Positions 140 to 15,890 are shown, counted from the stretch's first letter. The stretch is 44,562 nucleotides of DNA from Tissierellia bacterium (GCA_012735245.1 JAAYHU010000008.1:1-44562), one strand, 5' to 3'. Made by a program: numbers and translations. Notes: a model not told the origin generated them from the letters alone.

Positions 140-1870
140 ATGGGCAAAAAGGTAGTAATAGTAGGTGGAGTTGCTGGAGGTGCAACTGCCTTAGCAAGAC
201 TAAGAAGGCTTGATGAAGATTTGGAAATAGTACTATTTGAAAGGGGAGAATATATTTCCTTTGCCAACTGTGGCTTACCTTATTATATCGGAAATGTAAT
301 AGAAAACAGGGAGTCCTTATTAGTTCAAACTCCAGAGGGGATAATGGAGAGATTTAATGCAAGTATAAGGATTAAATCTGAAGTAATTAAAATCCTTAGG
401 GAGGAGAAAAAGGTCCTAGTCAGGGATTTAGAAACTAAGGAAGAATATGAAGAAAGCTATGATTATCTAATTCTATCTACAGGTTCTACTCCACTTAGAC
501 CGCCTATACCAGGTATTGATTCGCCCAATATTTTTAGCCTATGGAATATTCCAGATACAGATGCCATAAAATCTTTTATTGAGAAGGAAAAACCAAAATT
601 AGCAGTAGTAGTAGGGGGAGGATTTATTGGACTTGAAATGGCGGAGAACTTGTACGAACTAGGCATCAAGGTTTCCATAGTGGAAATGTTGGATCAGGTA
701 ATGGCTCCCTTAGATTATGAAATGGCCCAAATAGTCCATGAGCATTTAACAAATGTAGGAGTAGACCTTAGGCTAAAAGATGGGGTAAAGAGATTCGACT
801 ATAAAGATGGAGTTATCACTGTTACTCTACAGTCTGGAAAGACCATAGATGCAGATATGGTAATCCTGTCCATAGGTATTAGGCCAAATAGTGAGTTAGC
901 AAGGGAAGCAGGCTTGGCAGTTAATGAAAGAGGTGGAATTATTGTAGATAAATATTTAAAAACATCTGATGATTATATTTATGCCATTGGAGATGTTATA
1001 GAAGTAGAAGACTTTGTCAATAAAAATAAAACCATGGTCCCCCTAGCCGGCCCAGCTAATAAACAGGGTAGGATTGTTGCCAATAATATCTTAGGGGCCA
1101 AGGAAGAATATAGGGGAACTCAGGGAACCAGTATAGTTAAGGTCTTTGATTTGACTGTGGCCAACACAGGAACCAATGAAAAAACTTTAAATAGGCTTGG
1201 CAAAGTATATAATAAGGATTATTTTATAGCCCTGATTCATACTAATTCCAATGCAGGATATTATCCTGGGGCCTTGCCTATGACCATAAAATTAATATAT
1301 GATAAAGAAGGAAAAATCCTTGGTTCACAAATAGTAGGATATAAAGGTGTAGATAAGAGAATAGATGTTATTGCTACAGCCATAAGGTTTGGAGCTAAGG
1401 TGTCTGACTTAAAAGAATTGGAATTAGCATACGCTCCCCCATATTCCTCTGCAAAGGATCCTGTAAATATGATTGGATTTGTAGCTGAAAATCAGTTGAC
1501 AGGGAAAGTGGACATAGCTACTTGGAAGGATTTGGAGAATATAGATGAAAATACGGTTATCTTAGATGTTATGGAAGATGAAGAAAGGAAATTGGGTCAT
1601 ATTAAAAACTCCATCCATATACCCTTAGGCCAATTAAGGGCTAGTTTAGATGAACTAGATAAATCTAAGAACTATATTGTATACTGTGCTGTTGGTTTGA
1701 GAGGGTATATAGCCAGTAGAATAATGAAACAAAGAGGATTTAAGGTGAAAAACTTAGCTGGAGGATTTACAACCTATAAGACCATGTTCTGTCAAAGAGA
1801 TGAAGAAAACTGTATTGGCTTAAAGGAAGGGCCAATGATATTTAGTGACACTGGGGTACAAAGGATATAG
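140..1870 (+). CDS. CoA-disulfide reductase / persulfide reductase with C-terminal rhodanese domain
   Basis: This flavoprotein should use NAD(P)H to reduce CoA disulfide, CoA-persulfide or polysulfide, serving redox and sulfur homeostasis in the cytoplasm. The N-terminal FAD site reads VIVGGVAGGATALAR (about 7-20). The redox Cys44 lies in FANCGLPYYIG, the single-cysteine signature of CoA-disulfide reductases. A second Rossmann motif, VVVGGGFIGLEMAE, follows near 155-168, and IYAIGDVIE near 285 is the second FAD motif. A dimerisation domain follows. The last ~100 residues form a rhodanese domain with the loop CAVGLR, catalytic Cys516. At 576 residues it matches the CoADR-Rhd/Npsr fusion family. 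The ATG follows AAGGGAGG. The gene stands alone ahead of rubrerythrin, consistent with a stress-defence pair. The exact substrate (CoA disulfide, persulfide or sulfur) cannot be fixed from sequence. Confidence 0.9.
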   Translation: MGKKVVIVGGVAGGATALARLRRLDEDLEIVLFERGEYISFANCGLPYYIGNVIENRESLLVQTPEGIMERFNASIRIKSEVIKILREEKKVLVRDLETKEEYEESYDYLILSTGSTPLRPPIPGIDSPNIFSLWNIPDTDAIKSFIEKEKPKLAVVVGGGFIGLEMAENLYELGIKVSIVEMLDQVMAPLDYEMAQIVHEHLTNVGVDLRLKDGVKRFDYKDGVITVTLQSGKTIDADMVILSIGIRPNSELAREAGLAVNERGGIIVDKYLKTSDDYIYAIGDVIEVEDFVNKNKTMVPLAGPANKQGRIVANNILGAKEEYRGTQGTSIVKVFDLTVANTGTNEKTLNRLGKVYNKDYFIALIHTNSNAGYYPGALPMTIKLIYDKEGKILGSQIVGYKGVDKRIDVIATAIRFGAKVSDLKELELAYAPPYSSAKDPVNMIGFVAENQLTGKVDIATWKDLENIDENTVILDVMEDEERKLGHIKNSIHIPLGQLRASLDELDKSKNYIVYCAVGLRGYIASRIMKQRGFKVKNLAGGFTTYKTMFCQRDEENCIGLKEGPMIFSDTGVQRI

Positions 1871-1879
1871 ACTTAGGTG

Positions 1880-1909
1880 TTGACTTTTGTCCAATATAAT
1901 GGTTAAAAT
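1880..1909 (+). promoter_or_regulatory. Probable promoter of the rubrerythrin gene
   Basis: TTGACT (1880-1885) and TAAAAT (1904-1909) are 18 bases apart in the gap between the reductase and rubrerythrin genes. The match is moderate. No clear PerR box (TTATAATnATTATAA) is present. Confidence 0.4.
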
Positions 1910-1960
1910 AGTATAAAACAGTATTATAGTATCCAAATTAATAAAAAAGGGGGAATCATA

Positions 1961-2506
1961 ATGAATGCAATGACTGCTGATAATTTAAGATCTGCATTTG
2001 GTGGAGAATCTCAAGCCCATATGAGATACAGAATTTGGGCTGAAAAGGCGGAAAAAGACGGTTTTCCTACAGTAGCTAGGTTGTTTATGGCCACATCTGA
2101 TGCTGAGCAAGTACATGCTACCTTACATTTTAAAGCCTTAAAAGATGAAGTTGGTGACTTTTCAGTAACTTCAGGAGCAGGCTTTGGATATGGTACAACA
2201 TCCGACAATCTACAAGGAGCAATTAATGGAGAGTTGTTTGAAGTAAATCAAATGTATCCAGCATACATAGCAGTTGCAGAACTACAAGAAGAAAAAGAGG
2301 CATTAAAAGCTTATAGATATGCCATTGAAGCAGAAAAGGTACATGCTGAACTGTTTACCAAGGCAAAAGAAGCTGTAGATGCAGGAAAAGACTTAGAGGC
2401 AAAAGTAGTTGAACTTTGTCCAATTTGTGGATATATCACCATAACAGGCGAGGAAGAAAAATGTCCACTTTGTAATGCAAAGAAAGAAGTTTTCGTATCA
2501 TATTAA
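1961..2506 (+). CDS. rbr: Rubrerythrin
   Basis: Rubrerythrin is a cytoplasmic non-haem iron peroxidase that reduces hydrogen peroxide in anaerobes with electrons from rubredoxin or NADH-rubredoxin reductase. The N-terminal ferritin-like four-helix domain carries diiron ligands in GESQAHM (Glu16), DAEQVH (Glu49/His52) and EAEKVH (Glu125/His128). The C-terminal rubredoxin-like domain holds an FeS4 site from two CxxC pairs (Cys153/156 and Cys168/171). At 181 residues it is the normal length. The ATG follows a GGGGG-type ribosome site. A rubredoxin, its likely electron donor, is encoded at 33.3-33.46 kb. Confidence 0.95.
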   Translation: MNAMTADNLRSAFGGESQAHMRYRIWAEKAEKDGFPTVARLFMATSDAEQVHATLHFKALKDEVGDFSVTSGAGFGYGTTSDNLQGAINGELFEVNQMYPAYIAVAELQEEKEALKAYRYAIEAEKVHAELFTKAKEAVDAGKDLEAKVVELCPICGYITITGEEEKCPLCNAKKEVFVSY

Positions 2507-2513
2507 TTAGTTT

Positions 2514-2551
2514 AATGCTAGACATAGGAATATGTCTAGCATTATAATTTT
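2514..2551 (+). terminator. Hairpin terminator after rubrerythrin
   Basis: A perfect 13-bp stem (2514-2526 with 2531-2543, loop GGAA) starts seven bases after the rubrerythrin stop. The U tract is weak (ATAATTTT), so termination may be incomplete. Confidence 0.7.
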
Positions 2552-2585
2552 GCTATATAAAAATTAAAATTAATGGGGTGTTCTC

Positions 2586-3143
2586 TTGATAATAGAAACC
2601 ATTGCCCTATCCTTTATCCTAGGAAAGATAAGGGGAGGAAGTATTAGAAATATAGGAAAGTTAAATATTAATAAATGGTATATATTTGTCATATCCTTCC
2701 TTTTGGAAATCATATCCCTAATATTCATAACTAAGATTAATGTCCCTTTAAGTGGATTTTTGGAAAAAAATTTTCCTTACATACATATTTTAACTTACCT
2801 ATTGTTAATCTTGGGGCTTATTATGAATTTTCAGGAAAAGGGCCTTAAGCTAGTATTATTTGGTACTACTTTAAATTTTTTTCCAATAATCCTTAATAAT
2901 GGGAAAATGCCTGTATCTCTTAAAGCCCTTAAAATTTCAAATCTCCACACTGAATTGGCCTTATTAGAAGAAGGAAGGATATTAACCCACATCTTGGCAT
3001 GTGAATCAACAAGGCTTGCCATATTAAGCGATATAATTCCCATACCAAAGCCCTATCCCTTAGCTAAAATCATAAGTCTTGGAGATATTTTTATTGCCAT
3101 AGGTTTATTTATTCTTATTCAAACCTATATGAAAAAAGATTGA
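2586..3143 (+). CDS. DUF5317-like membrane protein of unknown function
   Basis: This 185-residue protein is very hydrophobic, with about five predicted membrane segments (roughly residues 1-12, 30-50, 63-80, 92-105 and 160-180). The N-terminal pattern, a hydrophobic stretch then KIRGGSIRNIGKLNIN, resembles the DUF5317 family found in clostridia. That assignment rests on memory of the family, not a search. The start is TTG at 2586, supported by GGGGTG seven to eight bases upstream. Hairpins on both sides suggest a monocistronic unit. No catalytic motif is visible, so no function is proposed. Confidence 0.65.
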   Translation: MIIETIALSFILGKIRGGSIRNIGKLNINKWYIFVISFLLEIISLIFITKINVPLSGFLEKNFPYIHILTYLLLILGLIMNFQEKGLKLVLFGTTLNFFPIILNNGKMPVSLKALKISNLHTELALLEEGRILTHILACESTRLAILSDIIPIPKPYPLAKIISLGDIFIAIGLFILIQTYMKKD

Positions 3144-3161
3144 AATTTAACCACATATTGG

Positions 3162-3195
3162 TAAACCCTTTAATAGAGGGTTTATTTTTTTATTT
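3162..3195 (+). terminator. Intrinsic terminator after the DUF5317-like gene
   Basis: An 8-bp stem, TAAACCCT (3162-3169) with AGGGTTTA (3177-3184), is followed by a run of mostly T. It lies 18 bases after the stop codon. Confidence 0.8.
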
Positions 3196-3236
3196 TTTGG
3201 CAAACTATTTTTAAAAGCTAAAGGGAGGTATATTAT

Positions 3237-3941
3237 TTGGAACCTAGACTAGTTATAATAGCAATAATCCCAGCTGCCATTATTATTTTTGCCATGTACC
3301 TAAGCGATAGGCATGATAGAGAGCCCTTTAAAGTATTACTTTTTACTTATATCTTAGGTGCCCTTACTGTTATTCCTTCCATTATAGTTGAAGAAATCCT
3401 TATTGCCTTTAACATATTTCCCGGAGTCTTGGGAGCCTTTTATAATGCCTTTATAGTAGCTGGCCTTACTGAAGAATATTTTAAGAGGCTTGCTGTGTTG
3501 AAATATCCATATAAGACCAAATTCTTCAATGAGAAATTAGATGGAATAGTTTATTCAGTATTCGTTACCATGGGATTTGCCACAGTGGAAAACATAATCT
3601 ATGTAGCCTTTAGATATACTAACAATCCTTTTATCGGATTATATAGGGGAATATTTTCAGTACCTGCCCATGGGGTATTCGGAATAACCATGGGATACTA
3701 TTTGTCCTTATCTAAATTCGATAACAACTTAGAGAGAAAAAGGATAAATATGAGGAAATCATTATACATGCCAGTTATCATGCATGGATTATTTGACTTT
3801 ATATTAATGGCCGATATACCACAGCTAACATTAATCTTTGTACCCTATGTAATATTCTTATGGGTTTTAAATCAAAGGAAATTGGCCAGTTTCATGTTTG
3901 ATTCAAAACATAGGGTAATAGGTCTAAAAAGGGAGAAATAA
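3237..3941 (+). CDS. prsW: PrsW-family intramembrane metalloprotease
   Basis: PrsW proteases are multi-pass membrane enzymes of the CPBP superfamily. In Bacillus, PrsW makes the site-1 cut in the anti-sigma factor RsiW. This 234-residue protein has the expected motifs within membrane helices: Glu79-Glu80 in GLTEEYFKR, Glu118-Asn119 in FATVENIIY, His145 in PAHGVFGITMG, and a final MHGLFDFI near 184. These are the likely zinc ligands and catalytic residues. The start is TTG at 3237 after AAAGGGAGG. No sigma/anti-sigma pair is adjacent, so its substrate is unknown. The next gene encodes a secreted CapA-like protein. Confidence 0.85.
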   Translation: MEPRLVIIAIIPAAIIIFAMYLSDRHDREPFKVLLFTYILGALTVIPSIIVEEILIAFNIFPGVLGAFYNAFIVAGLTEEYFKRLAVLKYPYKTKFFNEKLDGIVYSVFVTMGFATVENIIYVAFRYTNNPFIGLYRGIFSVPAHGVFGITMGYYLSLSKFDNNLERKRINMRKSLYMPVIMHGLFDFILMADIPQLTLIFVPYVIFLWVLNQRKLASFMFDSKHRVIGLKREK

Positions 3942-3973
3942 CCTACTATTGTAAAAAATAATGACAGGGTATA

Positions 3974-4010
3974 AAATAAATGGTAGATAGATTCTACCAT
4001 TTATTTTTTT
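3974..4010 (+). terminator. Strong intrinsic terminator after prsW
   Basis: A perfect 14-bp stem (3974-3987 with 3993-4006), five-base loop and T run lie just before the capA-like gene, whose GGGGG ribosome site starts at 4013. The close spacing leaves little room for a capA promoter after the terminator. Confidence 0.85.
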
Positions 4011-4023
4011 AAGGGGGAAAACC

Positions 4024-5280
4024 ATGAAGAGAAGATTTAGCATTATCTTAATCCTTGCACTAATATTTTTCCTATTAGGATTTATAAGTACTATTTTTAT
4101 TGATTTTAGGGGATATTTGGGAATTGAGAAGGAAACCTTTATTCCTGTTGATAATGAAAGCAATGAAGATATTGTCATAGACTATGAGGAAGAAAATATT
4201 GAGGAGGAGATAATTGAAGAAGCCAAAATATCTAATTTAAAAATACTTGCTGTCGGAGACATAATGTTTCATTCCCCTCAGTTAAATGCAGCCTTTAACA
4301 AGGAAACTAAGGAATATGATTTTACTCCTGTTTTTAAATATGTAAAAAAATACATAGAGCCAGCAGATATTTCCATAGGGAATTTTGAGACTGTAACTGC
4401 TGGAGAGGAAGTAGGCTATTCAGGTTATCCCAGGTTTAATACTCCAGAGGCAGCCCTCCTTGCCTTAAAGGATGCAGGTTTTGACATATTATCTACCGCC
4501 AATAATCATAGCTTAGATCATGGTAAAAAAGGCTTAATCAACACCATAGACAATATTCACAAATATGGGATAAAAAACATTGGGACATATAAAGAAGAAA
4601 ATACCATACTAGTTGAAGAGGTAAATGATATAAGAATTGGTTTCCTATCCTATACTTATGGATTAAATGGAATGGATTACACCTTAAAAGAGGAAGAATT
4701 AAATTTTATGGTAAACCTAATAGATGAAGGTAGGATTAAATCCCATATTGAGAAAGCCAAGGCTAAGGAGGTAGACCTAATCGTAGTATTTATCCATTGG
4801 GGAAATGAGTATCAGAGGGAGCCTTCCCAGTACCAAATGGAATTAGGAGAAAAGATAATAGGCTGGGGGGCTGATATAATCTTGGGAAGCCATCCCCATG
4901 TAGTCCAAAGGTCTCAAATAATTAATATGGATGGCAAGGACAAGTTCATTATCTATTCCATGGGCAATTTTCTTTCCAATCAAAGAAAAGAAACTATGGG
5001 GAATCCTTATACTGAAGATGGGGTCATGGTTCAATTGGAAATAGAAAAGGACTTGACTGAGAATATTACAATCATAAAAAATATTCATTATATCCCAACA
5101 TGGGTCCACAAGTTTAGAGACAATGGAAGACTTTTTTATGAAATCTTGCCTATAGAAGATTACCTAAGGGGAGATATTGAAATTGGAGATGAATATAGCT
5201 TAAGGGAACGGCTGGAGAAGTCTTACAATGATACTATGGAGAAGATGAGTGAAAATTCGACCATTTCAGAATTGAACTAA
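4024..5280 (+). CDS. CapA family protein (PgsA-like metallophosphatase fold)
   Basis: The family includes CapA/PgsA of poly-gamma-glutamate synthesis and many anchored extracellular proteins of unknown substrate. An N-terminal membrane anchor (about 5-28) is followed by an acidic linker rich in Glu, Asp and Ile. The catalytic-type domain follows with AVGDIMFH (near 78), GNFETV, ANNHSLDHG, IHWGNEY, GSHPHVVQ and YSMGNFLSNQ, matching the metal-binding motifs of the calcineurin-like fold. Length is 418 residues and ATG follows AAGGGGGAAA. No pgsB/pgsC genes are present, so a role in poly-gamma-glutamate synthesis is unsupported. An envelope-associated hydrolase is a safer description. Confidence 0.85.
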   Translation: MKRRFSIILILALIFFLLGFISTIFIDFRGYLGIEKETFIPVDNESNEDIVIDYEEENIEEEIIEEAKISNLKILAVGDIMFHSPQLNAAFNKETKEYDFTPVFKYVKKYIEPADISIGNFETVTAGEEVGYSGYPRFNTPEAALLALKDAGFDILSTANNHSLDHGKKGLINTIDNIHKYGIKNIGTYKEENTILVEEVNDIRIGFLSYTYGLNGMDYTLKEEELNFMVNLIDEGRIKSHIEKAKAKEVDLIVVFIHWGNEYQREPSQYQMELGEKIIGWGADIILGSHPHVVQRSQIINMDGKDKFIIYSMGNFLSNQRKETMGNPYTEDGVMVQLEIEKDLTENITIIKNIHYIPTWVHKFRDNGRLFYEILPIEDYLRGDIEIGDEYSLRERLEKSYNDTMEKMSENSTISELN

Positions 5281-5373
5281 TATTTGTATTATAAGTTTTT
5301 GGTTCAAATCAAACCCTACTTATTATATAATTGATATATAGGAAGGAAAAAAATAATAAAAGGTGTGGTTGCC

Positions 5374-6213
5374 TTGGAATTTTTTAGAGGATTGTTTTCT
5401 AATATGAGAATTAGAGATGTTATCGATATTATCATTGTCGCAGTAGTATTTTACAAGGTATTTACCTTGATTAGAGAGACCAGAGCGGAGCAATTGATTA
5501 AGGGTATATTTGCTATTTTTGTTTTTGAAAAGATCAGTGGAGAAGGATGGCTGGAGTTATATACAATTAACTGGATTTTAAAAAATACCATGACTGTTGG
5601 AGTTATTGCCATACTTATAGTATTCCAACCTGAACTACGTCGTGGCCTTGAATACATAGGTCGGTCAAGATTTTTCACCAAATCATTTCTGGAAATCAAG
5701 GGTGAAAGCCTTTCTAAGACAGTAGATGAAATTGTGGAAGCCTGTGCCTCTCTTTCTAGACAGAGGATTGGTGCCTTAATAGTATTAGAAAGGGAAACAG
5801 GTTTAAACGAGGTAGCTGAGACAGGCACCATAATCAACGGCTTAGTCTCCAGTAATCTACTTATCAATATCTTTATCCCAAATACCCCCCTGCATGATGG
5901 AGCTGTAATAATTAAAGAAGATAAGATTAAAGCAGCAGCCTGTTTTTTACCATTGACTGATAATATGAATGTCAGTAAAGAACTAGGTACTAGGCATAGG
6001 GCTGCCTTAGGCATATCAGAAAGGTCTGACAGCCTATCTATTGTTGTATCTGAAGAAACAGGCTCTATTTCCATTGCTGAAAAGGGGACCCTGGCAAGAC
6101 ACTTAGATATAAAGACTTTAAGACAGATATTGATAGATATGTATAAGCCCAAGGATTCACCTCAAACTTTTGTTGCTAGATGGAGGCGAAAAGATGAGCA
6201 AGGAGAAAAATGA
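5374..6213 (+). CDS. cdaA: Diadenylate cyclase CdaA (c-di-AMP synthase)
   Basis: CdaA joins two ATP molecules to make cyclic di-AMP at the membrane. Three N-terminal membrane helices (about 15-35, 40-55 and 72-85) precede the DAC domain. The catalytic DGA motif is at 175-177 (in TPLHDGAVII) and RHR at 207-209 (in GTRHRAALG). Length is 279 residues. I prefer TTG at 5374, because AAAGGTG at 5359-5365 is correctly spaced eight bases upstream. An in-frame GTG at 5365 would add three residues. It overlaps cdaR by about 20 bases, the usual cdaA-cdaR arrangement, but glmM does not follow. A promoter-like TTGGTT/TATTAT (5299/5321) lies upstream. Confidence 0.96.
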   Translation: MEFFRGLFSNMRIRDVIDIIIVAVVFYKVFTLIRETRAEQLIKGIFAIFVFEKISGEGWLELYTINWILKNTMTVGVIAILIVFQPELRRGLEYIGRSRFFTKSFLEIKGESLSKTVDEIVEACASLSRQRIGALIVLERETGLNEVAETGTIINGLVSSNLLINIFIPNTPLHDGAVIIKEDKIKAAACFLPLTDNMNVSKELGTRHRAALGISERSDSLSIVVSEETGSISIAEKGTLARHLDIKTLRQILIDMYKPKDSPQTFVARWRRKDEQGEK

Positions 6214-7408
6214 TTTGACTTTAAAAGTCTTTGCTCTTATTATAGCTATTGTCTTATGGAGCTATGTAATGAGTGAAGTAAATCCATATAGATCTGAAAC
6301 CATTAGAAATATTCCTGTTACCTTTAATAACCTAGAAGCCCTTGAAAGACAGGGCTTAGTGCTAATGGAGCCCAAGGAAGCCACTGTTACCGTAAGGGTA
6401 AAAGGAAGAAAATTTGATATGGCAAATTTTGATTCCAAAAAAATTAAAGCCTACGTTGATTTAAGTGGATACGGAGAAGGGCAAGTTAAAGTTCCAGTCC
6501 AGGTAGTAATAGGAGATTTTAGCAATATTAACATAGAAAGAATTGAACCATCGGAGATACTATTTAGATTCGATAAATTAATTAGCAGGCAAAAACCCGT
6601 TACCATTAGGACTACTGGTAACCTAGATTCAAATTATGTATTAGGAGATATTACAACGAAATCTGCCAGCGTCTTAATTACAGGACCAAGGTCTTGGGTA
6701 AATGAAGTGGCTGAGGTAATAGCAGAAGTAAAAATAGATGGAAGAAAGGAAAGTGCTAGCCTTACAGTACCAGTAAAACTAGTAGATGATGAAGGCAAGG
6801 AAGTAAGGGGAGTTAGGTATGAGCCAACAGTAATAGATGTGGATATTCCAATATATAGAAAGGTCACTGTACCTATTGAATTGCAAACGGAAAACCAATT
6901 GCCAGAGAATTATGAGATTACAAATATAAGTATAAATCCAAGCAGAATTGCCTTAAAGGGTGATAATAACATAGTATATTTAGCTTCAGTCCAAACAAAA
7001 CCAATAGATATAAATGAATTAATAGAAAATCCAACTATGGAAGTAGAATTAGATTTACCACCTAATATATCCCTAGTGAATCCAAATGAAAAGGTAACTG
7101 TTTCAGTTGTTATCGAGGAGACTTTAAGGAAGTCCTTTGAACTAAGTCTAAGGGATATAAGTATTAGAAATTTAGGAGAAGGGCTTAAGATTGCTGATGA
7201 TGATTTATCTAAGACCATTGCTATTACATTAAAGGGTAGTAAGGACCTAATGGAAAACTTTACGGAGGAAGATTTAGGCATATTTATCGACTTAAATTCC
7301 TTTAAGGCAGGAGAACATAAAGTGTACTTTGGATTTAATCTACCAACAGGCATTATCATAGAAGAGATTAATCCCCAGCCTATTGACATAAGGTTGATTA
7401 ACGATTAA
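6194..7408 (+). CDS. cdaR: CdaR, YbbR-domain regulator of CdaA
   Basis: CdaR is anchored in the membrane with its YbbR domains outside and modulates CdaA. One N-terminal membrane helix (about residues 10-26) precedes four weakly similar YbbR repeats of about 80-90 residues each. Typical landmarks are VTVRVKGR, VLITGPRSWV and IALKGDNN. Length is 404 residues from ATG at 6194, chosen because GGAGG at 6182-6186 is seven bases upstream. An upstream in-frame TTG at 6170 has no ribosome site. It is translationally coupled to cdaA. Confidence 0.92.
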   Translation: MSKEKNDLTLKVFALIIAIVLWSYVMSEVNPYRSETIRNIPVTFNNLEALERQGLVLMEPKEATVTVRVKGRKFDMANFDSKKIKAYVDLSGYGEGQVKVPVQVVIGDFSNINIERIEPSEILFRFDKLISRQKPVTIRTTGNLDSNYVLGDITTKSASVLITGPRSWVNEVAEVIAEVKIDGRKESASLTVPVKLVDDEGKEVRGVRYEPTVIDVDIPIYRKVTVPIELQTENQLPENYEITNISINPSRIALKGDNNIVYLASVQTKPIDINELIENPTMEVELDLPPNISLVNPNEKVTVSVVIEETLRKSFELSLRDISIRNLGEGLKIADDDLSKTIAITLKGSKDLMENFTEEDLGIFIDLNSFKAGEHKVYFGFNLPTGIIIEEINPQPIDIRLIND

Positions 7409-12229: not shown

Positions 12230-12787
12230 ATGGAAGAAAGAATAGTAATTGCTGGCTTTGGCGGACAAGGGATAATGGCCCTAGGTCAACTTCTAACCTT
12301 TGCAGGAATGACAGAAGATAAAAACGTATCCTGGCTACCTTCCTATGGTCCTGAAATGAGAGGCGGAACTGCAAACTGCAATGTTATCATATCAACTGAG
12401 GCGGTAGGTTCTCCAGTAGTTACTGAATCTACATCGGTCATCGTTATGAACAGACCCTCCTTAGATAAATTTGAAAACACCATAGTCCCTGGAGGAAGAC
12501 TATTTATCAATTCATCCTTAGTAGACAGAGAATCTACCAGAGATGATATAGAAGTTTATTATATCCCTGCCAATGAAATTGCAAACCAGTTAGGCAACAG
12601 TAGAGTAGCTAATATGGTCATGTTGGGAGCTTTCTTAGAGGTTACAAATGTGGTAGAGAAAAGCACCATTTTGGAAAAGGCTTTCACTGCAGTATTTGGA
12701 GAAAATAGAGCCCACCTATTACCAATAAATAAGGAGGCCCTGGAAAGAGGGGCACAAGTAGTACAAGAGCAAAAAGTTTCCCTATGA
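12230..12787 (+). CDS. 2-oxoacid:ferredoxin oxidoreductase, gamma subunit
   Basis: The gamma subunit (185 residues) completes the four-subunit VOR/KOR-type complex. It starts with the glycine-rich IVIAGFGGQGIMALGQLL, diagnostic of the POR/KOR gamma family and associated with CoA binding. SYGPEMRGGTANCNVIIS follows near 39-56. The ATG lies after GAGGCTGAATAAA. The final codons and stop are inside the transcription terminator, so the operon ends here. Confidence 0.92.
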   Translation: MEERIVIAGFGGQGIMALGQLLTFAGMTEDKNVSWLPSYGPEMRGGTANCNVIISTEAVGSPVVTESTSVIVMNRPSLDKFENTIVPGGRLFINSSLVDRESTRDDIEVYYIPANEIANQLGNSRVANMVMLGAFLEVTNVVEKSTILEKAFTAVFGENRAHLLPINKEALERGAQVVQEQKVSL

Positions 12788-12812
12788 TTTCATAGGGAAA
12801 TTTTTCTTTTTA
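12777..12812 (+). terminator. Intrinsic terminator of the ptb-buk-VOR operon
   Basis: A perfect 10-bp stem (12777-12786 with 12791-12800, loop ATTT) is followed by a T-rich tract. Its left arm contains the end of the gamma-subunit gene, including its stop codon. Confidence 0.9.
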
Positions 12813-12858: not shown

Positions 12859-12887
12859 TTGCAAATTAATGGATATTATGTTATAAT
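12859..12887 (+). promoter_or_regulatory. Sigma-A-type promoter of the riboswitch transcript
   Basis: TTGCAA (12859-12864) and TATAAT (12882-12887) are 17 bases apart. Transcription would start near 12894, about a dozen bases before the riboswitch fold begins. Confidence 0.75.
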
Positions 12888-12905
12888 ATCCATTGTAAAC
12901 TAAAT

Positions 12906-13025
12906 ATTAAAAGCTGAATTCTTTGTATAAAGAAGCGGGGGAACCAATTTTCTGGGGTGAATCCTTTATGGACGGGCATGGCCCTTTTTGTCCGAACCCG
13001 ACAGCTAACCTCGTAAGCTTTAAAA
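12906..13025 (+). ncRNA. Cyclic di-AMP riboswitch (ydaO/yuaA leader)
   Basis: The sequence carries the hallmark conserved blocks of this class in order: GGGGAACCAATTTT (12937-12950), a TGGGGTGAATCC block (12953-12964), a variable hairpin (about 12965-12992), CGAACCCGACAGCTAACCTC (12993-13012), and a closing P1 arm AGCTTT (13016-13021) that pairs with AAAGCT (12910-12915). The terminal ACCCGACAGCTAAC block is essentially the family consensus. These RNAs bind two c-di-AMP molecules and usually switch downstream genes off. A strong terminator follows, which supports an OFF switch acting on transcription. The regulated genes encode an opine dehydrogenase-like enzyme and a cobalamin-domain protein. 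The 347-base gap 12788-13134 is otherwise taken up by a terminator, this leader and its promoter. Confidence 0.93.
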
Positions 13026-13046
13026 GGGGGCAAGTAAGTTTGCTTA

Positions 13047-13074
13047 AAAACTATGGATGCCCATAGTTTTTTTT
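13047..13074 (+). terminator. Riboswitch-controlled intrinsic terminator
   Basis: A perfect 10-bp stem, AAAACTATGG (13047-13056) with CCATAGTTTT (13061-13070), and an uninterrupted T tract lie between the c-di-AMP aptamer and the next gene. Ligand binding is expected to favour this terminator. The competing antiterminator pairing was not resolved by eye. Confidence 0.9.
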
Positions 13075-13134
13075 GTACGCTGAAAAGAAGGTTGACATAA
13101 AAATACAAAAATAATATAAGAAAGGGGAGATTGA

Positions 13135-14253
13135 ATGAATAAGGATTTCACATTTGCTGTAATAGGTGCAGGTAATGGTGGCATGGCAATGGCCGGATAC
13201 TTATCCTTGATTGGATATAAGGTGAATTTGTACAATAGAACCTTAGAAAACATATTACCCTTGATAAAAAATCCTACTATCTCCTTAACTGGAGAAGTTG
13301 AGGGAGTAGGAGTATTAAATAAAGCAACTAATATAATTGGGGAAGCCATTGAAGGAGCAGATGTAATTATGGTCACTGTTCCAGCTATGGGCCACTATCC
13401 CTTAGCAGTAGCTATGGCACCCTACTTGACTGATGGTCAAGTAATAGTACTTAATCCTGGTCGTACGGGAGGTGCTTTGGAAGTTTATGAAGCCATCAAA
13501 AAGCATAGCCCAGATAAGGAAATAATAGTTGCAGAAGCTCAAACCTTTATATACGCTTGTAGAGCTACCTCCAGCAATAGTGCCCACATATTCCAAGTTA
13601 AGAATGAAGTCAAATTAGCCGCCATCCCGTCCGAAAAGACCAATCACGTTTTAAATCTTCTAAAGTTTGCATATCCACAGTTTGTTCCTGCAAGAGATGT
13701 TTTGGAAACCAGCATAAACAATTATGGAGCCATTTTCCATCCTGCCCCCACATTATTAAATAGCGGTCATATCGAAAGAGGTGCTCCCTTCGAATACTAT
13801 ATAGAAGGCATCACCCCATCCATAGGAGCTTTTCTAGAAAAAATGGATAATGAAAGAATGGAAATAGGTAAGGCCCTACAGATAAACACCTTATCTGCTA
13901 AAGATTGGCTGTATGAATCCTATGGTGCAGAGGGTAACAACCTATATGAAACGGTGCAGGCTTGTAACGCTTATAAAGGATTACAAGCACCAAAAGGGCT
14001 GCAAATTAGATATATCTATGAAGATGTGCCCTACAGCCTAATACCTATGGCTTCAATAGCTAGAGAATTGGGCATAAAAACTCCAGCCATTAATTCCATC
14101 ATAAATTTAGCTTCATTAATGACAGGCAAAGACTTTTTCGAAAATGGCAGGACCATAGAAAGGTTGGGCCTAAGGGGATTATCTGTCTACGAAATGCATA
14201 AATATGCTCAAACTGGAAAAATCGATAAGAAAGATAGGGAGGGTGTTGCTTAA
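13135..14253 (+). CDS. Opine (octopine/nopaline)-type NAD(P)-dependent dehydrogenase
   Basis: Members reductively condense an amino acid with a 2-oxoacid, or a related imine, using NAD(P)H. The 372-residue protein begins with a Rossmann fold, VIGAGNGGMAMAGYL, with Gly11, Gly13 and Gly16. It continues with VTVPAMGHYP and LNPGRTGGALE, typical of the family. The C-terminal all-helical Octopine_DH domain begins near 188, with NNYGAIFHPAPTLLNSGHIE (His202, His212) as the probable active-site region and MHKYAQTG at the end. ATG follows AAAGGGGAG. It overlaps the next gene by one base (TAATG). It is the first gene behind the c-di-AMP riboswitch. The substrates are unknown. No nearby gene resembles nicotianamine-like synthases of metallophore opine systems. 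Confidence 0.85.
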   Translation: MNKDFTFAVIGAGNGGMAMAGYLSLIGYKVNLYNRTLENILPLIKNPTISLTGEVEGVGVLNKATNIIGEAIEGADVIMVTVPAMGHYPLAVAMAPYLTDGQVIVLNPGRTGGALEVYEAIKKHSPDKEIIVAEAQTFIYACRATSSNSAHIFQVKNEVKLAAIPSEKTNHVLNLLKFAYPQFVPARDVLETSINNYGAIFHPAPTLLNSGHIERGAPFEYYIEGITPSIGAFLEKMDNERMEIGKALQINTLSAKDWLYESYGAEGNNLYETVQACNAYKGLQAPKGLQIRYIYEDVPYSLIPMASIARELGIKTPAINSIINLASLMTGKDFFENGRTIERLGLRGLSVYEMHKYAQTGKIDKKDREGVA

Positions 14254-15890
14254 TGAAAAAAATAATTGCAGGAACCTTAGGAAACTGTGTTCATGTTGCC
14301 GGTATAATGAACTACCTTAATTTGGCACAAAATGAAAAATATGAAACGGAATTCATTGGCATTGGAAAGTCAGTAGACGAATTAGTCCAATTAATAAAGG
14401 AAAAAGAGCCAGATATAGTGGCTTTATCCTACAGACTTACTCCAGAGCCATTAAATAAAATCTTAGAAGAGTTAAAGGAAAAGATAGAAAAACATAATTT
14501 ACAAAAGCCTACTTATATTTTCGGAGGTACTGAGCCAACTGCCCTAGTAGCCCAAAAATGGGGCATATTCGAAAAGGTCTTTGATGGAAGTGAAGACATA
14601 GATGAAGTAATAGCCTATCTTAAGGGAAAAGATTATTCCTTAGAGGAATCCTATCCTAGAGACTTAATATCTAGGATTAATTCTAAATACCCCTATCCAA
14701 TCTTAAGACACCATCTTGGCCTGCCTACTATAGAGGAAACAGTAGAGGCCATAGAAAAGGTGGCAGAAGCAAAGGTAATAGACGTAATATCAATTGCCCC
14801 AGACCAAAATGCACAGGAATTCTTCTTTGACCAAGAAAATATGGACGAAAGGTTAAATGGAGCAGGAGGAGTACCTTTAAGGACCGAAGATGATTTTAGA
14901 AAACTATATGAAGCTGCCCAAAGAGGCAATTATCCACTACTTCGTTGTTATAGTGGAACAAAGAATATAATAAGATTTGCAGAAGTCCTTAAAAGGACCA
15001 TAGATAATGCTTGGTGTGCAGTACCCCTATTTTGGTACAGTGAACTAGATAAGAGAGGTCCTAGGCCATTATTAGAAGCCATAAAAGAAAATCAACAGGT
15101 TATGAAATGGCACGGTGATAGAAATATACCTGTAGAGGTTAATGACCCGCATCATTGGAGCCTAAGGGATGCCCATGATGCCATAGGTGTAGCTGCTGCA
15201 TATTTAGCTGCATATAATGCAAAGAAAATGGGAGTAAAAGATTATGTTGCCCAATACATGTTCAATGTTCCAGCAAGTATTTCACCAGAAATGGACCTAG
15301 GTAAGATGCTGGCTAAGGTTGAATTAGTGGAAAGTCTAGTGGATGAAAACTTTAGAGTTTATCGTCAGGCTAGGGCAGGACTTGCAAGCTTCCCAACTAA
15401 TTTATACCAAGCTAAAGGTCAATTGGCATCATCTGCTTATCTAGCCATGGCAATTAAGCCACATATATACCATGTGGTAGGCTATTGTGAAGCCCATCAT
15501 GCAGCTAGGGCAGAAGACATAATAGAATCTGCCATGATAGTAAGGGGAGTTATTAAAAATGAATTCCTTGGCTCAGTCAATATGGCTAAGGATAAAAATG
15601 TCCAAGAAAGAAAGAATGAGCTTATAAAAGAAGCTAAAATAATCTTAAAAGCTATAAAATCCCTAAATCCAAAGGCAGAAGATCCATTGGCTGACCCCGA
15701 AACCCTAACTGAAGCTGTAAGGGTGGGAATCCTAGATGCTCCGCATTTAATAGGCTCAAAGATAGCTAGGGGCCAGCTAAAGACAAGGATGGTCAGTGGC
15801 GGATTATATGCCTATGATGAAAAGAATGGAAGAATCTTAAGAGAAGAAGAAAGGATAAATAGCCTTTTAAAAGAAATATCAAATAGATAA
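14253..15890 (+). CDS. Cobalamin-binding-domain protein, possibly a B12-dependent mutase-like enzyme
   Basis: The 545-residue protein looks like a two-domain B12 protein. Residues about 1-110 resemble the cobalamin-binding Rossmann domain: CVHVAG at 12-17 lines up with DxHxxG, so His14 and Gly17 are kept but Asp is Cys12. ALSYRL at 57-62 corresponds to the SxL region and FGGTEPT at 90-96 to the GG motif. The remainder (about 150-545), with PHHWSLRDAHDAIGVAAAYL and EAHHAARAEDIIES, resembles a large alpha/beta catalytic domain such as the barrel of AdoCbl mutases. That fold call is uncertain. It overlaps the opine-type dehydrogenase gene by one base, implying coupled expression and a shared pathway under c-di-AMP control. 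I do not recognise its reaction. Confidence 0.65.
   Translation: MKKIIAGTLGNCVHVAGIMNYLNLAQNEKYETEFIGIGKSVDELVQLIKEKEPDIVALSYRLTPEPLNKILEELKEKIEKHNLQKPTYIFGGTEPTALVAQKWGIFEKVFDGSEDIDEVIAYLKGKDYSLEESYPRDLISRINSKYPYPILRHHLGLPTIEETVEAIEKVAEAKVIDVISIAPDQNAQEFFFDQENMDERLNGAGGVPLRTEDDFRKLYEAAQRGNYPLLRCYSGTKNIIRFAEVLKRTIDNAWCAVPLFWYSELDKRGPRPLLEAIKENQQVMKWHGDRNIPVEVNDPHHWSLRDAHDAIGVAAAYLAAYNAKKMGVKDYVAQYMFNVPASISPEMDLGKMLAKVELVESLVDENFRVYRQARAGLASFPTNLYQAKGQLASSAYLAMAIKPHIYHVVGYCEAHHAARAEDIIESAMIVRGVIKNEFLGSVNMAKDKNVQERKNELIKEAKIILKAIKSLNPKAEDPLADPETLTEAVRVGILDAPHLIGSKIARGQLKTRMVSGGLYAYDEKNGRILREEERINSLLKEISNR

Follow-up and report, generated by a model that had tools for sequence, protein, structure and literature searches.

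We found that a full-length c-di-AMP riboswitch leads an operon encoding an opine dehydrogenase and a predicted adenosylcobalamin (AdoCbl)-type mutase in a Tissierellia bacterium, and that this association recurs in separate bacterial lineages. The window, that is, the entire stretch of DNA analysed here (44,562 nucleotides; GCA_012735245.1, JAAYHU010000008.1), was examined for the riboswitch, the operon, the family and acidic signature of the dehydrogenase and the fold of the mutase, all of which were computed, as was the recurrence of their association. The reading that we prefer, to which we assign a little better than even odds (probability of roughly 0.55), is that the operon is repressed by c-di-AMP and makes an acidic opine-type compatible solute serving as a counter-ion for K+. 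Just short of an even bet is the broader proposal that an acidic opine dehydrogenase and a new AdoCbl-mutase subfamily form a so far undescribed, widespread pathway to a new class of anionic compatible solutes, governed by a c-di-AMP turgor switch in several bacterial phyla; under this proposal, the hosts of the pathway would be anaerobic bacteria as well as archaea, Asgard lineages among them.

Table 1. Features of the operon, its leader and its context (positions counted from the first letter of the window)
Feature	Position	Strand	Evidence
cdaA, diadenylate cyclase (c-di-AMP synthase); context, outside the operon	5365-6213	+	DAC E 3.8e-46, CdaA_N E 1.2e-12
cdaR-like YbbR protein; context	6170-7408	+	YbbR E 3e-32
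Terminator of the preceding 2-oxoacid:ferredoxin oxidoreductase operon	12780-12797	+	7-bp stem and T-tail
Candidate sigma-70-type promoter (TTGCAA, 17 nt, TATAAT, TG-extended)	12859-12887	+	10/12 consensus matches
c-di-AMP riboswitch aptamer (ydaO/yuaA, RF00379)	12902-13034	+	Rfam covariance match, 102.1 bits, E 2.8e-23
Predicted expression platform: intrinsic terminator hairpin and U-tract	13046-13074	+	Folding: 11 bp, -12.6 kcal/mol
Opine dehydrogenase, predicted acidic-amino-acid type (R110, G198; H202/D297; W258)	13135-14253	+	PF02317 E 3.1e-45
Predicted AdoCbl-type mutase: B12 domain (~residues 1-126) and glutamate-mutase-E-like barrel (133-538)	14253-15890	+	Pfam, AlphaFold2 model

A c-di-AMP riboswitch in front of a two-gene operon

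The first-pass annotation had recognised a ydaO/yuaA riboswitch in the leader from its conserved blocks, and the Rfam covariance search that it proposed bears this out: the match spans model positions 1-134 of 134 (gathering score of 38) and is the sole RF00379 match in the genome, the assembly being 87% complete. The promoter-like sequence upstream of the aptamer, a consensus match that by itself is no evidence of function, and the separate terminator of the preceding operon together argue that the pair forms a transcription unit of its own. The aptamer is followed by a hairpin (13046-13071, with the U's after it) that, judging from the sequence, is likely to be its expression platform. This terminator had been described as strong; the 11-bp hairpin and the U-tract are indeed present, but the adjective is generous, because the hairpin is A/U-rich, and it was missed by a simple terminator scanner and seen by folding. 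Folding revealed no single convincing alternative helix in which the 3' part of the aptamer would pair with the terminator as an antiterminator, and neither the window nor any of the loci scanned with Rfam yielded a Na+ aptamer.

The two genes share one base (TAATG, at 14253), in agreement with the translational coupling suggested earlier. Also as suggested, the c-di-AMP synthesis genes cdaA and cdaR lie upstream, where both were confirmed by their domains at ~5.5-7.5 kb from the operon (~7 kb in the original estimate). The pair adjoins fermentation-type genes, namely those for a phosphate acyltransferase, an acyl kinase and a 2-oxoacid oxidoreductase.

The dehydrogenase carries an acidic-amino-acid signature

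Assignment of the first gene to the opine dehydrogenases held (PF02317, 154.3 bits against a cut-off of 30; NAD_binding_2, 28.7 against 21), while the second, initially seen as a B12-domain protein, turned out to encode a complete predicted AdoCbl-type mutase. The dehydrogenase matches 1bg6 (CENDH/ArODH; phmmer E 5.7e-81) and is 38% identical to ArODH over 347 columns, with its predicted catalytic dyad and active-site Trp aligned with those of ArODH, residues of the kind described for opine dehydrogenases (PMC10787698). Opine dehydrogenases from a hot-spring metagenome (mODHs) prefer L-Asp or L-Glu plus pyruvate and mostly NADPH, and a double-mutant swap demonstrated that Arg at ArODH position 111 together with Gly at position 198 sets the preference for Asp versus Phe (PMC10787698, 2024). 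The window enzyme carries the same residue pair as the acidic-preferring mODHs, R110 and G198, and its N34 and T36 agree with the D34 and D36 changes there. Whereas the mODHs were made from a metagenome with their gene context unreported (PMC10787698), for the window enzyme this context is a mutase gene and a riboswitch.

The R110/G198 pair was invariant across an alignment of 81 full-length dehydrogenases from mutase-linked loci and absent from all seven unlinked family members of related genomes that served as controls; it was also found in solo dehydrogenases and in those accompanying divergent mutase subtypes, down to ~24% identity. Based on the signature and its distribution, the predicted reaction of the window dehydrogenase is the condensation of pyruvate with an acidic L-amino acid. 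The reaction of opine dehydrogenases is reversible.

In four related genomes, the same dehydrogenase (77-80% identity, R110/G198 present) follows the switch at loci L262-L265 with the mutase absent, and in two of them an M20 hydrolase comes next. This mutase is therefore probably not needed for the dehydrogenase substrate, and, because of these solo loci, we favour common Asp or Glu as that substrate, with the mutase acting on the opine.

The second protein resembles glutamate mutase in fold

The B12-binding domain PF02310 (39.6 bits against 32.1; E 5.3e-10) was the sole Pfam domain found in the second protein, and a sequence search of the PDB likewise matched the B12 domain alone. In an AlphaFold2 model built with 76 relatives (mean pLDDT 92.9), the region spanning residues 133-538 is closest in fold to glutamate mutase E from Clostridium cochlearium (Foldseek E 5.5e-18; 1cb7_B, VIA Z 32.8, 373 residues aligned at 16% identity), with lysine 5,6-aminomutase, ornithine 4,5-aminomutase and methylmalonyl-CoA mutase ranking lower. 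The Pfam model of glutamate mutase E (PF06368) has no match in the window protein or elsewhere in the genome, and matches some orthologs at or below the cut-off, one of them just over it (26.7 against 26.6). Since profile-profile comparison against ten genuine GlmE sequences gave a weak match (E 0.056), the kinship to glutamate mutase rests on the fold and on these ortholog matches. MutL/GlmL (PF13941), the reactivating helper or chaperone of glutamate mutase, is absent from the window operon and adjoins relatives at four loci; in two genomes the mutase is one chain of 1214-1233 aa with a MutL-like part, which Pfam confirmed at locus L228.

We conclude that the second protein is, as modelled, a predicted AdoCbl-type mutase whose cofactor domain is fused to the N-terminal side of the barrel. 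The glutamate mutase E fold, the fusion or adjacency to MutL/GlmL and the fact that Pfam sees the B12 domain alone mark it as a member of a so far undescribed AdoCbl-mutase subfamily. With glutamate mutase (GlmE/GlmS, PF06368 plus a B12 domain, with GlmL/MutL) it shares the barrel fold and, in its relatives, the MutL beside or fused to it; H14 and G17 of the B12 domain are kept, and the DxHxxG motif reads CVHVAG. Unlike GlmE/GlmS, it has both parts in a single chain, the B12 domain coming first.

We take Arg66, Arg100, Arg149 and Glu171 of GlmE to bind glutamate and Glu330 to contact the ribose. When the strands were aligned by hand, with low confidence, the first four residues fell opposite H154, Q188, Y233 and P258, and Glu330 opposite the invariant E413; the R149-Y233 correspondence is also seen in an hhalign alignment. 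The apparent replacement of the glutamate-binding residues in this low-confidence alignment suggests that the substrate may be other than free glutamate. Glutamate mutase proper was rejected as an identity for the window protein, which lacks a PF06368 match and in which the substrate residues seem to be replaced. Lysine 2,3-aminomutase (ablA), considered below, is a radical-SAM enzyme, in contrast to the AdoCbl type predicted here.

The riboswitch-operon association recurs across lineages

A scan of 84,980 species genomes recovered at least 567 relatives, and the 80 retained span Bacillota, Chloroflexota, Bacteroidota, Thorarchaeota, Thermoproteota and others. Carriers available in culture include Tepidanaerobacter, Thermoanaerobacter thermocopriae and an environmental strain of Tissierella. 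A dehydrogenase is present in 94 of the 102 loci examined (a few genomes were counted twice). At all 13 closest orthologous loci, from the family and order of the window genome (69-93% identity), the riboswitch lies immediately upstream of the dehydrogenase. Mutase loci were also drawn by phylum and by class, independently of the switch, and scored for a switch lying upstream on the same strand at a distance of at most 6 kb: it was present at 27 of 60 loci in the phylum draw (33 without) and at 3 of 21 in the class draw (18 without), with ~0.1 of 60 loci expected by chance (77 switches in 59 genomes of ~2.6 Mb). The genomes of switch-less loci often carry a c-di-AMP switch elsewhere. Among the 80 named loci, 29 have the switch, which leads the operon in every one of them (29/29), whatever the gene order.

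Rfam-confirmed switches precede the same operon in Sumerlaeota (101 bits), Chloroflexota (91), Armatimonadota (72) and Fermentithermobacillaceae/Limnochordaceae (63-98); these loci derive from metagenome bins, although the Chloroflexota mutase clusters with others from its phylum. On a quick mutase tree, the presence of the switch requires at least seven state changes, a count that cannot separate gain from loss or transfer; because of these changes, the link probably arose repeatedly, which is the simplest reading. As to whether homologous pairs elsewhere lack this leader, a survey called for by the first-pass annotation, the answer is divided: many do, yet the leader recurs in separate lineages.

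Operon partners and genomic neighbours

In many species, the operon also includes an ATP-grasp enzyme of the D-Ala-D-Ala ligase family or an AsnB-type amidotransferase, the former under the same switch at four loci and the latter at two. Amide formation by such ligases resembles NAGGN synthesis, and the presence of amide-forming ligases in the operon points to biosynthesis. Na+/H+ antiporters adjoin relatives at four loci, a Na+/Ca2+ exchanger at one and an MscS-type channel gene at another, although these ion-transport neighbours are few and come partly from related Anaerolineae. Other c-di-AMP switches in sister genomes are located on genes for Trk-type K+ uptake (TrkA_N, TrkH) and OpuA betaine transport. 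The recurring association, the osmotic neighbours and the acidic signature thus lend support to the original proposal that the riboswitch controls the pair and that the pair makes an amino-acid-derived solute; the wall-related metabolite offered as an alternative gained none.

Precedents and proposed mechanism

The window leader has the hallmarks of the c-di-AMP (ydaO/yuaA) class RF00379, i.e. a full aptamer in leader position with a terminator behind it. Most known targets of the class have transport or wall functions and one, ablA, belongs to osmolyte synthesis, whereas the target here is an opine dehydrogenase/mutase pair. The earlier view that such a pair does not fit the known targets was nevertheless too strong: in Dehalobacter, ablA (lysine 2,3-aminomutase) is preceded by tandem Na+ and c-di-AMP riboswitches, the latter an OFF-switch on this gene for the osmolyte acetyl-beta-lysine (PMC9337991). 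The window pair can be likened to this system, in which a c-di-AMP OFF-switch acts on the mutase gene of a compatible-solute precursor, although the ablA enzyme yields beta-lysine and its leader has a Na+ aptamer in tandem, for which the window leader gave no match. In Lactococcus, c-di-AMP lowers the Glu/Asp counter-ion pools (PMC8092236). Within the openly licensed literature, we found no paper on a c-di-AMP riboswitch with an opine dehydrogenase, octopine or glutamate mutase, although supplementary tables of earlier surveys may list the target, and nothing relevant on glutamate mutase together with opines.

The beta-lysine OFF-switch and the Glu/Asp pools are the precedents for the mechanism to which we commit. 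That c-di-AMP would turn the operon off is inferred from the architecture and from experiments on other riboswitches of the class; what the two enzymes act on and in which order, what they make and how this serves osmotic balance are likewise put forward conditionally. At high c-di-AMP (turgor and K+ sufficient), the aptamer would let the terminator form and the operon would be silent, and as c-di-AMP falls, transcription would read through. Using NAD(P)H, the dehydrogenase would then join Asp or Glu to pyruvate, giving an N-(1-carboxyethyl)-amino acid; the coupled mutase would more likely rearrange the carbon skeleton of this opine than that of free glutamate. In some species, the ATP-grasp or asparagine-synthetase-like enzymes would amidate the product, and the anionic end product would build up in the cell, serving both as an osmolyte and as a counter-ion for K+.

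If true, many uncultured anaerobes and archaea would possess a vitamin-B12-dependent route to a new osmolyte, the 'orphan' acidic opine dehydrogenases purified from the hot-spring metagenome would acquire a physiological role, the small set of adenosylcobalamin mutases would gain one more reaction, and c-di-AMP control would widen from solute import and K+ to the synthesis of an amino-acid-derived counter-ion. Counted against an osmolyte are the many switch-less relatives, the catabolic-looking L228 locus, the reversible dehydrogenase and the GlmE substrate residues that are not conserved in the hand alignment.

Alternative explanations

The strongest competitor, which we nonetheless regard as unlikely, is that the pair functions in uptake or catabolism and that c-di-AMP only times it. 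At L228, the dehydrogenase and the mutase-MutL fusion adjoin an opp (oligopeptide)-type ABC transporter and a C26 peptidase, a subtype context that looks like uptake or catabolism, and both the fermentation-type neighbours of the window pair and the fact that ODH-type reactions run both ways would suit such a role. However, a transporter is absent from the window operon and is not consistently present among the 13 close orthologs, biosynthetic-type ligases lie within the switch-controlled operon in other species, and turgor fits c-di-AMP control better than feeding does. Slightly less probable still is a redox sink, in which opine formation would re-oxidise NAD(P)H under envelope or osmotic stress and the product would be waste. 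Octopine-type enzymes play this part in anoxic marine invertebrates, the predicted reaction consumes pyruvate and NAD(P)H, and most of the named hosts look anaerobic, to judge from their names and groups; yet a sink would have no use for the mutase and the ligases, other outlets for pyruvate are open to the host, and the switch senses osmotic state rather than redox.

We consider it improbable that the product is a signalling, wall or metal-chelating metabolite, that is, a wall constituent or an opine-type metallophore. Opine metallophores exist (PMC7438024), wall hydrolases are among the known targets of c-di-AMP switches, and the ATP-grasp partner is a member of the D-Ala-D-Ala ligase family. 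Against this, none of the genes consistently linked to the loci of the relatives codes for a metal transporter, an exporter or a wall function. Zinc-transport-like genes do occur near a D-type mutase at one locus (L051), which represents a different subtype without the opine dehydrogenase.

Variant loci of the mutase and the opine dehydrogenase

In a third mutase subtype, the C-type (loci L047 and L049), the c-di-AMP riboswitch comes first, followed by the mutase and then a divergent opine dehydrogenase; the riboswitch is there even though protein identity is only about one-third. L049 additionally encodes an ATP-grasp protein. At L262, L263, L264 and L265, the riboswitch is followed by an acidic-type opine dehydrogenase alone, with an M20 amidohydrolase downstream in L262 and L264. 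Two mutase/ATP-grasp operons include an alanine-racemase-like protein (Table), hinting that some versions of the pathway involve a D-amino acid.

At L228 and L229, mutases of this family fused to the glutamate mutase chaperone MutL/GlmL adjoin an opine dehydrogenase, and the L228 fusion gene also has as neighbours an ABC transporter of the oligopeptide type and a peptidase of the C26 family. The D-type mutases (~635 aa) form a separate subfamily, of which the one member scanned had no Pfam match. Their neighbours vary by locus: glutaminase; genes resembling those for zinc transport, together with a Fur-like regulator; genes resembling 2-hydroxyacyl-CoA dehydratase; or an ATP-grasp protein with an opine dehydrogenase.

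Table. Coordinates of variant mutases and of the alanine-racemase-like partner
Feature	Locus	Position	Length	Pfam
Alanine-racemase-like protein	L103	8701-9418		
Alanine-racemase-like protein	L119	4138-4980		PF01168 confirmed
Mutase-MutL/GlmL (actin-like) fusion	L228 (G521)	2306-6007	1233 aa	MutL part confirmed (this chain only of the pair)
Mutase-MutL/GlmL (actin-like) fusion	L229 (G552)	1739-5383	1214 aa	
D-type mutase	L050	9479-11383		
D-type mutase	L051	14962-16869		
D-type mutase	L052	8624-10540		
D-type mutase	L032	8452-10368		

Another opine-dehydrogenase subfamily (L266, L268 and L269) lacks the R110/G198 signature predictive of acidic substrates, and its loci possibly serve catabolism of N-alkyl amino acids. 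Its members lie amid genes for glycine/sarcosine/betaine reductase (Pfam-confirmed for L268), alanine dehydrogenase-like proteins and transporters.
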